Positions 3,253 through 21,360 of a stretch of 64,000 nt of DNA are shown in pieces. Source of the DNA: Lachnospiraceae bacterium (GTDB lineage Bacteria > Bacillota > Clostridia > Lachnospirales > Lachnospiraceae); NCBI GenBank assembly GCA_015057035.1, contig SVFC01000004.1:81999-145998 (forward strand). The letters are read 5' to 3'. Under the pieces are notes generated by a model, which saw nothing but the letters and a program-made list of their open reading frames with translations, had not been told where the DNA came from and made no database searches. The position numbers and the translations under genes are program-made. The first letter of the stretch is position 1, and every line of letters starts with the position of its first letter.

Positions 3253-4065
3253 CTAACTACGATTATAATCCACTTCATAGAATTTGTGAAGTGACCAAAC
3301 CTTAACATTTACTGGAGTTATCCTTAAACCACAGTATTCGCAGAACTTATGACCAAGACTTTTTACCGGCGCACCACAGTTTGGACATGTGGTTCCCACG
3401 GCATTATCTAAGGTGGTCAAATCAGAATCCTGAATATACACCAGTTCCATATTATACTTGGTCTGTGTCTTACGCTTCTTGTCACCATCCACCAGTTTTC
3501 CGTCTTGCATCTTGTAATGCAGATATCCCACAGCACTTTGAATGGTAATCACGCATTTCCCGTCTATTTTTTGATAGTTGGCGATTTCCGTCTGGTGAAT
3601 CTCAATGTCAGAATAGGTTTCTCCCACGCCATTTAATCGATTACTCTCGATGATGTTGGTCACTTGCTTCTTCACATCCTCTGATGCCTCCACTAGACGC
3701 CCAGGATTATTTGCCGAGATAGCAAGAAATGCCGACGTCAGCATATTTTCTGCTTTATGCTTGAATTCTTCCCAGGAAAATTCCGGGAAATCACGCATAA
3801 TCTGAGGCTCCATAATTCGCGTCATGGAAGACACAGACTTTGGCGTTTCTGCCAGCACGTCCGCCTGGCGATTCCAGCCATCCATCAGATTCGGAGTTCC
3901 AAAAAACGTCTGGGAAAACCTACGTATTTTGTTTGTAATATTTCTATATACCGTCATAACCGCAATGGCAACCCCTGCTATAGTGAGCAAAATAATCAAC
4001 AGTTTGATTATCTCATAAGTACTCATTCCAAGGGCACCACCTGCAAGTTTATGAGAAAAAATCAT
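3253..4065 (-). CDS. membrane-anchored Tim44-like domain protein with zinc ribbon
   Basis: N-terminal TM helix, Tim44-like middle (MRDFPEFSWEEFKHKAENMLTSAF), CPNCGAPVKSLGHKFCEYCG ribbon; strong RBS AGGGAGGAAG. Confidence 0.7.
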   Translation of the reverse strand: MIFSHKLAGGALGMSTYEIIKLLIILLTIAGVAIAVMTVYRNITNKIRRFSQTFFGTPNLMDGWNRQADVLAETPKSVSSMTRIMEPQIMRDFPEFSWEEFKHKAENMLTSAFLAISANNPGRLVEASEDVKKQVTNIIESNRLNGVGETYSDIEIHQTEIANYQKIDGKCVITIQSAVGYLHYKMQDGKLVDGDKKRKTQTKYNMELVYIQDSDLTTLDNAVGTTCPNCGAPVKSLGHKFCEYCGLRITPVNVKVWSLHKFYEVDYNRS

Positions 4066-7302: not shown

Positions 7303-7416
7303 TCTTAGTACCTACACTTTTTCATATATTATGTTTCCTGTGCTTAAAAAAAGCACAAATTTTCACATATAAGATATTATATGCAAAAAGAGACCTTTCT
7401 ACAAGGTCTCTTTTAA

Positions 7417-8334
7417 TTATACCTTAAGATGTTTTCTAATGGTCCACACACTTCCAAAGAAGCCGATGCCTACACCAAGAACCAATGCTACAGGAACAAG
7501 GCCCTGGAATAAAATCTGTGGTTTTACAAAATCCATAAATGCTCCCACAAAGCTAAAGGTTTCTGCCACATAGATGACAATCTTGTCATAGAGCACAAAC
7601 AACAAGCCTAACGGAATTGCTGCCCCTACAAGACCAATGACGATACCTTCTACTACGAATGGGAAACGAACCAAAAAGTCGGTGGCACCGATCAGTTTCA
7701 TAATTCCGATTTCCTCTTTTCGTACCGAGATACCTACGGATACGGTATTGTTAATTAAGAATACTGCTACACAGAGCAGAATCAGAATAATACCACTGGA
7801 CACAAGACTCACTATCTTGTTGAACTGGGTTAATGTATCCGCCACAGCCTGTGACTGTTTTACCTCGCGAACACCTTCAATGTTCTTGATATAATTCACC
7901 AAGCCCGTCTGCTGGGACACATCGTTTAGATATACTTCAAGATTCGCAAAGTCTTCCAATGGGTTATCTGTAAATCCCGCTGCATAAGCTTCGTTGCCTT
8001 CAAAATAAACATCTTTGAAGTTTTCCCACGCTTCCTCCGCGGAAATATAAACAACTTCTCTTACTTCTGTTCTTTTTTCAATGTCTGGTTTAATCGTTTC
8101 AAGAATCTGCTGCTCTTCAACCCCAGAATCAAAAAACACTGTAATCGCAACCCCTTCTTCCACACTCTGTACCATAACGTTGATGTTGGCAATTAAGATA
8201 TAAAATATACCAAACATAAAGATACAAGCTGACATTGTTGCAATAGATGCAAGGGAGAACATTCCATTACGGAAAATGTTTTTAAACCCTTGTCCGATTG
8301 AATAGAAAAATGTATTAATTCTCATCCGCTTCAT
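7417..8334 (-). CDS. ftsX: cell division protein FtsX
   Basis: MRINTFFYSIGQGFKNIFRNGMFSLASIATMSACIF; four TM FtsX architecture; overlaps the ftsE end; exact start uncertain (8325-8364). Confidence 0.93.
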   Translation of the reverse strand: MKRMRINTFFYSIGQGFKNIFRNGMFSLASIATMSACIFMFGIFYILIANINVMVQSVEEGVAITVFFDSGVEEQQILETIKPDIEKRTEVREVVYISAEEAWENFKDVYFEGNEAYAAGFTDNPLEDFANLEVYLNDVSQQTGLVNYIKNIEGVREVKQSQAVADTLTQFNKIVSLVSSGIILILLCVAVFLINNTVSVGISVRKEEIGIMKLIGATDFLVRFPFVVEGIVIGLVGAAIPLGLLFVLYDKIVIYVAETFSFVGAFMDFVKPQILFQGLVPVALVLGVGIGFFGSVWTIRKHLKV

Positions 8335-9001
8335 CACCCGCATTGTTGTCACTAACGACAACACCTTTCTGTATAGTGATTACACGTTTTTTCATGACTT
8401 TGACAATGTCGAGGTTGTGAGTAACTACAATCACTGTAGTTCCACGTTCGTTGATTTCCTCTAACAATTTCATGATTTCCCATGCATTACTGCTGTCTAA
8501 GTTTCCTGTTGGTTCATCCGCCAAAAGAATACTTGGTTCATTTACCAAAGCTCTTGCTATAGCAACTCTCTGCTGCTCACCACCTGATAATTCCTTTGGA
8601 TAGGATTTATACTTTGCGGCAAGTCCTACCATAGACAACATGGCTGGCACTTTTTTCTTAATGTTCTTTGTTGGTTCTCCAACAACCTTCTGAGCGAAGG
8701 CGATGTTTTCATATACATTTCTGTCTTTTAACAAACGGAAATCCTGGAAAACACATCCAATATTTCTACGGAATTTTGGAATGTGTCTTCTTCTAATCTT
8801 ACGTAACTGTTTACCGTTAATCACAATAGAACCCTCTGTTGGTTCTAATTCCTTTAAAAGCAACTTAATCAAAGTTGATTTGCCGGAACCACTGCTACCA
8901 ACGATAAACACAAATTCTCCATCTTCAATTTCCAGGTTAACATCGTTCAGCGCAGGAATCCCTGCAGAATATGACTTGCTGACATGTTCCAGTTTAATCA
9001 T
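8315..9001 (-). CDS. ftsE: cell division ATP-binding protein FtsE
   Basis: Start at internal MIKLEHVSKSY; GSSGSGKSTLIK Walker A, LSGGEQQRVAIARAL signature. Confidence 0.95.
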   Translation of the reverse strand: MIKLEHVSKSYSAGIPALNDVNLEIEDGEFVFIVGSSGSGKSTLIKLLLKELEPTEGSIVINGKQLRKIRRRHIPKFRRNIGCVFQDFRLLKDRNVYENIAFAQKVVGEPTKNIKKKVPAMLSMVGLAAKYKSYPKELSGGEQQRVAIARALVNEPSILLADEPTGNLDSSNAWEIMKLLEEINERGTTVIVVTHNLDIVKVMKKRVITIQKGVVVSDNNAGDEADEN

Positions 9002-16120: not shown

Positions 16121-18778
16121 TTGAGTTATAACAAGAGTACTATTAAACGTAAAATCCAGACAACAGATTCAACACCTGCCAAGGTAAAGAATAAATTTAT
16201 CATTAGTTCCATCAAGGTGGTCATGACCTTCATTATCGTATTTGCAGTAATCGTAGGCAGTACAGGCCTTGGTGTTGCCAAGGGAATCATTGATTCTGCG
16301 CCTGATATCTCAGATATTAAAGTCACACCTACCGGTTATCAGACTACGGTATATGCCGCAGATGGAAAGACATCCATTGCAACACTGGTTGGTTCAGGTG
16401 CAAACCGAAAATACGTAACCATTGATGAGATTCCACTTCACACACAGCACGCCTTTGTAGCAATTGAAGATTCCCGTTTCTACGAACACAACGGTATTGA
16501 CCTGTATGGTATTGCCCGTGCTGCTGTTGTTGCAGTAAAAGACATTTTATCAGGAAGATCCCCATCTCAGGGTGCTAGTACCATTACCCAGCAGTTAATC
16601 AAGAACAACGTATTAATCACTTGGGTAGGTGAAGATACTTTCATCGAAAGTCTCCAGCGTAAGATTCAGGAGCAGTACCTGGCATTGAAATTGGAAGAAC
16701 AGTTGCAGGACAAGGACTTTATCCTGGAAAACTACTTAAATACCATTAACTTAGGACAAAACACTCTGGGTATCCAGGCAGCATCTCAGCGATACTTCGG
16801 CAAAGACGTATCAGAGCTTACCTTGTCTGAAAGTGCTGTTATTGCAGGTATCACCAAGATGCCATACAGCTACAACCCTATCACAAACCCTGAGAAAAAT
16901 GCAGAGCGTCGTGAGAAGGTCCTTCGCGATATGTTAGCGCAGGGATACATCACCCAGGAAGAACATGATGAAGCCCTTGCAGATAATGTATATGACCGTA
17001 TTGCTTTGTACAATTCCAATACCGAGACTTCTTATAACAGTTATTTCGTAGATGCTCTGATTGATGATGTCATTGATGACTTAGTAGAAATCAAGGGCTA
17101 CACGGAAACAGAAGCTTACAAGGCTTTGTACCGTGGCGGTTTGACCATCGTATCTACTCAGGACTTAGAGATTCAGAAGATTGTAGACGAAGAAGCAAAC
17201 AATCCTGACAATTATCCAAAGGACGTAGAATATTCCTTCATGCTGAACTTCCAGGTGAAGAAAGCAGACGGAACCTTTAAGACACATACCCATTACACTA
17301 TGTTGTCTTATTATAAAAAAGCCACAAATAACACCAACTTCACGATTAACTATGACTCAGAAGAAGCGTGTTACGAAGCTATTGAAAAATACAAAAAGGA
17401 TATCCTAGAGGAAGGTGACACCATCGTAGATGGTTCCGAATCCATTTACATCACCCTTCAGCCTCAGATTGCATTAACTGTCATTGACCAATATACAGGT
17501 CAGGTTAAGGCTTTGGTTGGCGGACGTGGTGAAAAAGAAGGTAACCGTACCTGGAACCGTGCAACAGATACTACCCGTCAGCCAGGCTCTACCTTTAAGA
17601 TTCTTGCTTGCTACGCTCCAGCCCTTGAAGTTGGCGGATACACGCTGGCAAGCGTACAGGATGACTGCGAATTAATCATCGGTGATAAAACTTATCGAAA
17701 TTCCGATGAGGAATACCATGGACTGACTACAATCCGCGAAGCCATTACGAAATCCTATAACATTGTAACCTTAAAGACATTGCAGGATATCGGCGCTGGC
17801 ACCGGTTTGGAATATGCTAAAAAATTTGGTTTTACCACACTGTCCGAGTCTGACCGAAGCTTAAGCCTTTGTCTTGGTGGTTTGACCAATGGTGTGAAAA
17901 ACATCGAACTTACTGCCGCTTATGCTGCAATTGCTAACGGCGGTGAATATATTGAACCAAGCTATTATACACAGATTTATGATCATGACGGAAACCTGAT
18001 TCTGGATAACAGCCAGAAGGAACGTCATACTGTTATCAGTCCACAGACTGCCTTCTTACTTACAGAGGCAATGCAGGACGTTATGACAAGTGGTACTGGT
18101 AAAAAAGCTTACTTCGGTAGCACAATGCCACAGGCTGGTAAAACTGGTACAACTACTGCAAGCCGTGACTCTCTATTTGCAGGATATACACCATATTATA
18201 CCTGTGCTGTTTGGGGTGGCTACGATGACAACTCAAAACAGAAGAGTTCCACTACGACTTACTGTAGAAACATTTGGCGTGCATCTATGAGTCGTATTCA
18301 TGCGGATTTACCTTACAAGGACTTCACCAGACCAAGTAAGATTACAACCGCTGTAGTATGTAAGGACTCAGGACTTGTTCCATTAGAAGGAATTTGTTCT
18401 ACTTGCATCAAAGGCAACTCTGTTTATACAGAATATTTTACCTTAGGAACCACTCCTGTTTCCACATGTAACCACCACATCAAATTAGACATTTGTTCCG
18501 CTACCGGTCAGCTGGCTTCTGCAAACTGTACACATACCACCAGCAAGGTTTATATCTATGATGCTGATCCAGAGACTAACGATAAGAAGTATATTGCTTC
18601 TGATGCATTCCTGATGACTCCTTGTACGTTGCATAGTGTTCAACTTCCAGAAGTTCCAACACCTGGACCAACAGATCCAACCGATCCAGGAACTTCCGAT
18701 GATCCAGGCAACAATGTTCCCGATGATCCATCTCAGGAAGCTCCTCTGGAAGATGCTCCAGACAACGGAACTAACTAA
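16121..18778 (+). CDS. class A penicillin-binding protein (PBP1A-type transglycosylase/transpeptidase)
   Basis: EDSRFYEHNGIDLYGIARA, GASTITQQLIKN, RQPGSTFKI, SYNIVTLK, GKTGTT motifs; TTG start with AGGAGG. Confidence 0.95.
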   Translation: MSYNKSTIKRKIQTTDSTPAKVKNKFIISSIKVVMTFIIVFAVIVGSTGLGVAKGIIDSAPDISDIKVTPTGYQTTVYAADGKTSIATLVGSGANRKYVTIDEIPLHTQHAFVAIEDSRFYEHNGIDLYGIARAAVVAVKDILSGRSPSQGASTITQQLIKNNVLITWVGEDTFIESLQRKIQEQYLALKLEEQLQDKDFILENYLNTINLGQNTLGIQAASQRYFGKDVSELTLSESAVIAGITKMPYSYNPITNPEKNAERREKVLRDMLAQGYITQEEHDEALADNVYDRIALYNSNTETSYNSYFVDALIDDVIDDLVEIKGYTETEAYKALYRGGLTIVSTQDLEIQKIVDEEANNPDNYPKDVEYSFMLNFQVKKADGTFKTHTHYTMLSYYKKATNNTNFTINYDSEEACYEAIEKYKKDILEEGDTIVDGSESIYITLQPQIALTVIDQYTGQVKALVGGRGEKEGNRTWNRATDTTRQPGSTFKILACYAPALEVGGYTLASVQDDCELIIGDKTYRNSDEEYHGLTTIREAITKSYNIVTLKTLQDIGAGTGLEYAKKFGFTTLSESDRSLSLCLGGLTNGVKNIELTAAYAAIANGGEYIEPSYYTQIYDHDGNLILDNSQKERHTVISPQTAFLLTEAMQDVMTSGTGKKAYFGSTMPQAGKTGTTTASRDSLFAGYTPYYTCAVWGGYDDNSKQKSSTTTYCRNIWRASMSRIHADLPYKDFTRPSKITTAVVCKDSGLVPLEGICSTCIKGNSVYTEYFTLGTTPVSTCNHHIKLDICSATGQLASANCTHTTSKVYIYDADPETNDKKYIASDAFLMTPCTLHSVQLPEVPTPGPTDPTDPGTSDDPGNNVPDDPSQEAPLEDAPDNGTN

Positions 18779-18779
18779 T

Positions 18780-19041
18780 GTCTTTTGAATGTCGGACATC
18801 CGTGGGCTGGCAGTATGCGCATCGGAGACTTCGTTGTAATTTTCAAGTACTTCTAGATATGCCTTAGAACAAAGTTGATATAAAAAACCGCTCTTGAGAA
18901 CTCGGCGCAAAAGTAGCGCCTCAAACATTCAAGAGCGGTTTTACATTTTGTTCTAATGGCATATCAAGAAGTACTAAGAAAACTCCAAATAGTCTCTGAT
19001 GCGCATACTGCCAGCCCACGGATGTTCGTCTATCAAAAGAC
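18780..19041. repeat. Long imperfect inverted repeat (arms ~115 bp, ~31-bp loop) in a convergent intergenic region
   Basis: Left arm 18780..18896 vs reverse complement of 18928..19041; shared 28-nt perfect block ACATCCGTGGGCTGGCAGTATGCGCATC; inner terminator-like AAAACCGCTCTTGA/TCAAGAGCGGTTTT. Confidence 0.9.
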
Positions 19042-19076
19042 ACGAAAACATCCATCAAAAAGCGATTCTTATTTTT

Positions 19077-21200
19077 CTATACTTCAAAAATCAGGTCGCC
19101 ATACGAAGGCATTGGCCACATAGATTTGTCTACAATCATTTCCAATTTGTCAACTGGCGCACGCAGGTTGCTCATAGCCACGGCAACTTCATCGTTATAG
19201 TAGTGAGCCTGGGCTTCACCACGCTCCATCTTAACAGCGATCTCCGTTACTTCCTGCAATCTGGTGAGTGCCGCTTTGGTCTCTGCCAACAAGTGGGATG
19301 TTTCTGTGAGAAGTTCTGCCTGTACATTAATAGGAATATCCGGACATGCCATTTTTACTGCATTGTAGCTTTCTGCCAATACAGTAGTATATCGAATAAC
19401 TGCAGGAATGATTTGCTTGGTGGCAATATCAATCATTGCACGAGCTTCAATATTCAAAGTCTTAGCATAGATTTCATATTCGATTTCCACGCGGGACTCT
19501 AATTCATTTCTGCTAAATACGTTGAAACGTTCGAATGCTGCAACAGATTCTGGCGCAATGTAGGCTGGAATTGCATCCACCATACATTTGTGGTTTGGAA
19601 GTCCTCGACGAGCCGCTTCTTCCACCCATTCCTCAGAATATCCATTTCCGTTAAAAATAATACGTTCATGTTCTTTTGCATATTCTGAGATTAATTCACG
19701 CACTGCTACGTCCACGTTGTCTGCTTTTTCTAATACATCGCAGGCATCTGCAAACGCTTCTGCCACAATCGTATTCAGGATAACGTTGGACTGTGCCACG
19801 GAATCCATGGATCCCACCATACGGAACTCAAACTTATTGCCCGTAAAAGCAAATGGTGAAGTACGGTTTCTATCTGCCGCATCCTTACGGAAGTCTGGCA
19901 GGGTTTTCACACCTGTAGAGAGACGTTCTCTCTTGATGCTGTGGGTTGCGCTACCTGTGGCAATAAACTGTGCCAAAACGTCTTCTAACTGTTCTCCAAG
20001 GTATACCGAAATAATCGCAGGTGGTGCTTCATTCGCTCCAAGACGATGGTCATTGCCTACGTCTGCCGCAGAAGCACGAAGAAGACTAGCATGCTTATCT
20101 ACTGCACGAAGCACACATGCTAACACTAACATAAACTGTGTGTTTTCATGTGGTTTAGAACCTGGATTCAAAAGATTGATACCATCATCGGTAGTCAGTG
20201 ACCAGTTATTGTGCTTACCAGAACCATTCACACCTGCAAATGGCTTCTCGTGAAGGAGACACTGTAAACCATGACGACCAGCAACCTTCTTCAAGGTTTC
20301 CATCACAAGCTGGTTGTGGTCTACCGCCACGTTACATGTGGCATAAATTGGTGCAAGCTCATGCTGCGCTGGTGCAGCTTCGTTGTGCTCTGTTTTGGCT
20401 GTTACACCCAGTTTCCACAACTCCACGTCCACATCCTTCATATATGCAGCAATACGTTCACGAATGGAGCCAAAATAATGGTCATCCATTTCCTGTCCCT
20501 TTGGTGGCATTGCTCCAAACAGAGTACGTCCTGTAAATACCAGGTCTTTTCTCTTTAGGTATTTCTCTCTATCTACAATAAAATATTCCTGCTCTGGACC
20601 AACAGATGGAATCACCTTCTTGGAAGTGGTATTGCCAAGCACTCTAAGTAGTCTTAAAGACTGTTCGTTGATGGCTTCCATAGAACGAAGAAGTGGTGTC
20701 TTCTGATCCAAGGCTTCTCCTGTATAAGAGCAGAAAGCGGTTGGAATACAAAGCGTAGCACCGCCTGCATCCTGTCTCACGAAGGCTGGAGAAGTACAAT
20801 CCCAAGCTGTATATCCTCTCGCCTCAAAGGTAGCGCGAAGACCACCTGAAGGGAAAGAAGATGCATCTGGCTCCCCTTTGATTAATTCTTTTCCTGAAAA
20901 ACTCATAAGTACTTTGCCATTTGCCATAGGCGCTGTGATAAATGAGTCATGCTTCTCTGCGGTTACCCCGGTCAGTGGCTGGAACCAGTGTGTATAATGA
21001 GTGGCACCTTTTTCAATGGCCCATTCCTTCATCTCGTGTGCGATTACGTCAGCGGTTTCAATATCCAGTTCAATTCCTTCTTCGATTACCTGGTGAAGTT
21101 TCTGGTAAATCTTCTTAGGAAGACGCGCCTGCATTGCAGCATCATCAAATACATTTTCACCAAAAATCTCAGCCACATTAATTCTAGTAATTTCGCTCAT
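19077..21200 (-). CDS. glnN: type III glutamine synthetase
   Basis: GSIII motifs ([52 protein letters not shown]); start [11 protein letters not shown]. Confidence 0.95.
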
Positions 21201-21360
21201 ACACTGTTCCCTTTCCAATAGTTATAGTATATTTCTATTTTACATATATCATTTATAAGTTTTTCTTATCCATCAATATTCATTGTTGCAGAAATCTTAT
21301 AAAAATTATGTAACTACTATACTCCACTTTGTCCCATTAGTAAAGAGAAATTTATAAACA

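Follow-up and report, generated by a model that had tools for sequence, protein, structure and literature searches.

The long hairpin between the PBP1A-like and glnN-like genes of the window (the whole 64-kb stretch of DNA that was analyzed) is best read as a truncated and core-inverted copy of a non-coding mobile hairpin, a reading that takes in spread of the unit, upkeep by template switching and co-option as a terminator and to which we give a probability of roughly 0.7. In the mechanism proposed, copies would spread as a unit by trans-acting machinery that recognizes the folded core, probably in single-stranded or cruciform form, and polymerase template switching between the arms would restore their complementarity and flip the core. 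Between convergent genes the outer arms would terminate both neighbors, and a copy lost by deletion would leave one terminator hairpin behind. At the junction of PBP1A and glnN the element would take over the position of an ordinary bidirectional terminator.

The inverted repeat, read directly from the sequence, covers positions 18779–19042 (264 bp, no strand assigned) and is by far the longest in the window. The first-pass annotation had recognized a real hairpin at 18780–19041, but its limits were one base short on each side, and the feature extends past 19041 because a remnant of the right outer arm common to full-length copies, CGAAAACATCCATCAAAAAGCGATTC (19043–19068, + strand), runs on to 19068. 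The element had also been placed 2 nt past the PBP1A stop, while it actually begins at the first base after it. Both neighboring genes, named as in that annotation, are convergent: the PBP1A-like gene (885 aa; 16121–18778, + strand), the stop of which abuts the element, and the glnN-like glutamine synthetase gene (713 aa; 19077–21218, − strand). The outer 85 nt of the arms are 81% complementary without gaps, in agreement with the earlier estimate of about 80%. The + strand folds as RNA to −163.8 kcal/mol, compared with −60.7 ± 5.3 kcal/mol in dinucleotide shuffles (z = −19.4; 0 of 200 as good), and the − strand fold reaches z = −18.5.

The 28-nt perfect block, the central stem AAAACCGCTCTTGA/TCAAGAGCGGTTTT (18884–18942, no strand assigned) and the GGCGC/GCGCC tip described earlier were all found again by direct reading. 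The central stem is flanked by A/T runs and looks terminator-like by eye, but the consensus terminator scan called none in the window copy. The conserved apical motif, TGTTTGAGGCGC-TACTTTT-GCGCCGAGTT, lies at 18899–18927 and is read on the − strand. One strand of the conserved asymmetric internal loop is at 18874–18881 (ATATCAAC on the − strand, GTTGATAT on the + strand) and the opposite strand at 18943–18947 (AATGT on the − strand, ACATT on the + strand). Comparison with another host copy, L002, revealed the composite nature of the window copy. The left outer stretch (18779–18823, + strand) is oriented as in the other copies; the two outer stretches match L002 at 44 of 45 (left) and 43 of 45 positions in one orientation, and the core between them (18824–18997, − strand) matches the reverse complement of L002 at 173 of 174, so that core and outer arms of this one copy face opposite ways. 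The outer left arm of full-length copies has been lost, which makes the window copy a truncated one. An open reading frame, MFEALLLRRVLKSGFLYQLCSKAYLEVLENYNEVSDA..., recurs within the hairpin (18485–18928 on the − strand in the window, with matching frames in other copies), and could be annotated in error as a family of conserved proteins.

In the host genome (G000), the gene content of which suggests a gut member of the Clostridia, a BLAST search with the 264 bp recovered 13 core copies that are complete or nearly so, most of them 93–97% identical. It also recovered fragments at the ends of contigs, evidently because the assembly had broken on the repeat there; a covariance model counted 19 copies. 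The lack of any second copy, which was to speak against the feature, is thus contradicted by many further copies in the same genome. Eight host contigs (C7, C9, C15, C22, C27, C32, C39 and C40) end inside element copies, and the element is a systematic assembly breaker also in the genomes G007 and G067. Full copies are near-perfect hairpins of about 510–660 nt with arms of about 280 nt. Most host copies are hairpins of 506–603 nt, the arms of which extend through GAATCGCTTTTTGATG...CATCAAAAAGCGATTC and then GGGGCTGTTGCAAAATACC...GGTATTTTGCAACAGCCCC. Shorter forms are found between convergent host genes: L106 is a 215-bp form with the two outer layers only, and L108, L109 and L112 are single short terminators of the outer type. 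Three copies (L105, L107 and L012) keep the core and have different middle or outer layers. In L012 (C39:50043–50266), between tandem genes and downstream of a sugar-hydrolase-like gene, the core is enclosed by another perfect outer stem, GAAAAAGTTGCACAC/GTGTGCAACTTTTTC, and the copy either is chimeric or has inserted into the loop of a terminator. At L116 (C32:27043) the left outer arm is of one subtype and the right of another, and the two pair badly; recombination between two copies would give such a picture. Rfam matches above threshold, a TwoAYGGAY RNA and a SAM riboswitch, were present near two loci (L230, 5816–5982; L106, 1346–1444).

At full length the element had no BLAST match in 59 relatives. 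Two weak matches, in G007 and G067, led to hairpins with the same architecture and almost unrelated stems. The shared core consists of an apical TGTTTGAGRYGC-TGYTTTT-GCRYCGAGTT, an internal loop AATGT/AATATCAAC and a fixed T·T mismatch. A covariance model of this core, searched in 62 genomes of the genus, was positive in 12, with 31 copies in G007, 26 in G067, 19 in G000, 18 in G013 and one to seven in each of eight others; the closest sampled relative by glnN, G011, had none. A second model reached, more weakly, three more genera within the family and two in a different one. Of 391 genomes of the class, 31 contained the exact apical pattern, in up to 49 copies; the reversed pattern occurred once each in two genomes. 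Some of these class genomes as well as some viral contigs were also scored by the second model, and the family membership of distant genomes and viral contigs is provisional, as it depends on weaker model scores. Hairpins with the same apical motif are present in the viral contigs L308, L340 and L333. L308, which carries phage structural genes, has them at 3818–3908, 7324–7427 and 8814–8917, and two of the three flank a pair of small genes in inverted orientation. The searches of phage and plasmid DNA gave no match to the element, and Rfam no relevant match. An exact stem pattern, searched in a collection of genome contigs, gave 32 hits that lacked a second arm and were put down to chance. A literature search by motif string and keywords found no description of the family; most subscription journals lay outside its scope, and an earlier description is possible.

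The covariation analysis proposed in the first-pass annotation covered 56 distinct core sequences. Among them, 44 of the 46 core pairs had changed on both sides, and 91.4% of the cells were paired, compared with 59.0% after shuffling. Double-changed cells numbered 834 against 253, and the covariation score was 0.784 against 0.196 in shuffled and at most 0.153 in slid structures; the counts lean towards structure because the sequences had been aligned to the model itself, but both kinds of control were far lower. In the same sequences the apical and internal-loop sequences are kept while the stems co-vary freely. Conservation sits in the center: the apical core persists from genus to genus, and the ends differ between copies and species. 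Unpaired columns, too, vary within the host (13 of 50), which counts against the preferred reading.

The mismatches between the arms point to DNA as the level at which pairing is kept. An RNA selected on one strand is expected to show more G·U than A·C mismatches on that strand. Over 52 copies, with 11,532 Watson–Crick pairs, there were 394 G·T and 356 A·C mismatches (p = 0.18), in the core alone 49 and 34, and in the host core copies 14 double-changed pair types stood against single changes of five G·T and six A·C. The two arm differences earlier noted as G-U pairs are correctly described, but the window copy has also two A·C mismatches and the two kinds are equally common overall. Because the mismatches lack a G-U preference, arm pairing appears to be upheld at the DNA level and not as RNA. 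Judged from the substitution pattern, copying from arm to arm by polymerase template switching would be the simplest account, and gene conversion between copies could contribute to the likeness of the arms. Template switching homogenizes arms and inverts spacers (PMC8604942, PMC8794818), and the element shows both compensatory changes without wobble intermediates and core inversion: the inverted core of the window copy is the outcome it predicts, and at an orthologous locus of G007 and G067 (L178/L200) the core is reversed between the two species. Published template-switch quasipalindromes (PMC8794818, PMC8604942, PMC7202029) are alike in their compensatory arm changes and in the inversion of spacer or core; their stems, however, are short and fixed in place, whereas the present arms are about 280 nt long and the unit is dispersed in many copies. 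The conserved loops need another keeper, presumably recognition of the folded core.

Occupancy of sites was compared between alleles of G007, G067 and G024. One site, between divergent genes (L186, empty allele L233), has a clean insertion: the filled allele is flanked by TTCAA left and right, the empty allele has a single TTCAA, and the repeat is a candidate 5-bp target duplication. The site is empty in the relative also at L183, L197, L199 and L176, the last of these just past a terminator T-tract. At the convergent sites L173, L193 and L184, and also at L177, the empty allele carries an ordinary terminator. The orthologous PBP1A/glnN junction of G067, the locus at which a comparison with relatives had been proposed, has a short terminator-like stem of 23 bp. 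At L187 the filled allele has one terminator hairpin at each end and the empty allele (L345) a single such hairpin, GAGGCTGCCGCAAAATAAATTTGCGACAGCCTC. The left hairpin of the filled allele matches the reverse complement of the empty-allele hairpin at 32 of 34 positions and its direct sequence at 27 of 34; either insertion into a terminator was followed by homogenization of the arms, or a deletion left the solo hairpin. The length of the duplication appears to vary by site, being 5 bp at L186, about 2–9 bp and ambiguous at L183, and 30 bp, largely an inverted copy, at L187. This inconsistency weighs against the mobile reading, as does the absence of a transposase or recombinase linked to the copies.

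By ORF calling, 25 of the 56 loci lie between convergent, 27 between tandem and four between divergent genes, and in the host, the window included, 11 of 13 are convergent. Convergent copies have terminator-like outer stems, whereas the non-convergent copies of G007 and G067 mostly end in AATTCG... without such stems. This distribution suggests that gene ends are favored, by selection or by choice of target, and that the element has been co-opted as a putative bidirectional terminator. Intrinsic bidirectional terminators resemble the element in their convergent position and in the terminator-like outer and central stems, and relatives have one at this junction; the element differs in its dispersed mobile copies, its conserved core loops and its presence at non-terminator sites too. 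An ordinary bidirectional terminator lengthened in place by template switching, without mobility, would agree with the terminator hairpins of relatives at PBP1A/glnN and other convergent junctions and with the single short forms between convergent host genes. As a complete account it is refuted by the dispersed near-identical core, common to unrelated loci, and the copies between divergent and tandem genes and the clean insertion at the divergent site L186 also speak against it, which leaves it highly improbable.

The first-pass annotation had further suggested a MITE, a long structured 3′UTR or sRNA, or an RNase III substrate formed by convergent transcripts. Neither RNA candidate is supported, as wobble is favored on neither strand and copies occur also between tandem and divergent genes, while the dispersed repeat was right in kind, given about 19 host copies, 11 other species of the genus with copies and empty sites in relatives. 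A multi-copy structured RNA with protein-binding loops and stems maintained by selection on the RNA would explain the asymmetric loops that are conserved as read on one strand, the massive covariation and possibly the tandem G·A steps of the apical motif, which recall kink-turns. Covariation alone, however, does not prove a functional RNA, since here enormous covariation carries no wobble signature; the window copy has no promoter-like site, Rfam gave no match, the loci are of all three gene arrangements, and we regard this explanation as unlikely. Similarly unlikely is a classical MITE, a deletion derivative of a DDE insertion sequence that is mobilized by the transposase of that sequence and the terminal inverted repeats of which have grown to fill the element. 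The inverted-repeat architecture, the many non-coding copies at unrelated loci, the empty sites and the 5-bp duplication at L186 fit it. Conserved terminal inverted repeats in common with a parent insertion sequence were not found: the ends differ between copies and species, and the host BLAST matches, all of them known hairpin copies or contig-end pieces, included no parent or half-element. Duplication length does not appear constant, and conservation lies in the center and not at the ends. The recurrent neighbors of the copies were restricted to housekeeping families and to hairpin sequence read as protein; no transposase or recombinase was linked to the copies.

The folded core with its conserved mismatches and its intergenic position at gene ends would also be expected of a REP/BIME-like single-stranded DNA hairpin moved by a Y1 (HUH) RAYT transposase, as would a strand bias of the core. 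Such a bias was seen, with 37 of 56 cores on the negative-GC-skew strand (p = 0.02), but its weakness also speaks against the idea. REPs (PMC2817692, PMC3733652) share with the element that they are extragenic palindromes at gene ends with conserved mismatches in the hairpin, but they are described as 20–40 bp long (PMC3733652), in contrast to about 600 nt here. Copies of 510–660 nt showed no GTAG/CGTC tag at their ends by eye, and the Y1/RAYT family (PF01797) is absent from the three copy-richest genomes, G000, G007 and G067; we consider this explanation quite improbable. The small mobile sequences RU-1/ERIC, RU-2 and RUP (PMC2759123, PMC2229807) are likewise non-coding, intergenic, palindromic and dispersed and have no transposase of their own, but the present hairpin is four to five times longer, keeps its asymmetric core loops across genera and has no parent insertion sequence among the matches found. 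The dispersed hairpin is a non-coding palindrome like a MITE or a REP, yet it lacks features by which membership in either is judged.

Integron attC sites are defined by paired R and L boxes and a linked integrase; no such box-like ends were seen on the element. Returning to the mobile hairpin as the preferred reading, it is conceivable, and put forward tentatively, that it represents a new class of mobile element, a folded DNA hairpin in which CTGTYTGAG-stem-CGAGTTT and the asymmetric internal loops are the sole conserved part and are recognized by the machinery, spread through the class and perhaps beyond it. The element offers a natural setting where stems hundreds of base pairs long stay complementary across dozens of copies while their sequence diverges almost freely. 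Three matters become directly testable with it: repair of palindromes by template switching, how stable very long palindromes are in bacteria, and spread in the absence of any known transposase.

Elsewhere in the window, two direct repeats of 65 nt, 88% identical and 81 nt apart, lie at 1973–2118; they probably stem from duplication of a zinc-ribbon segment of the − strand.
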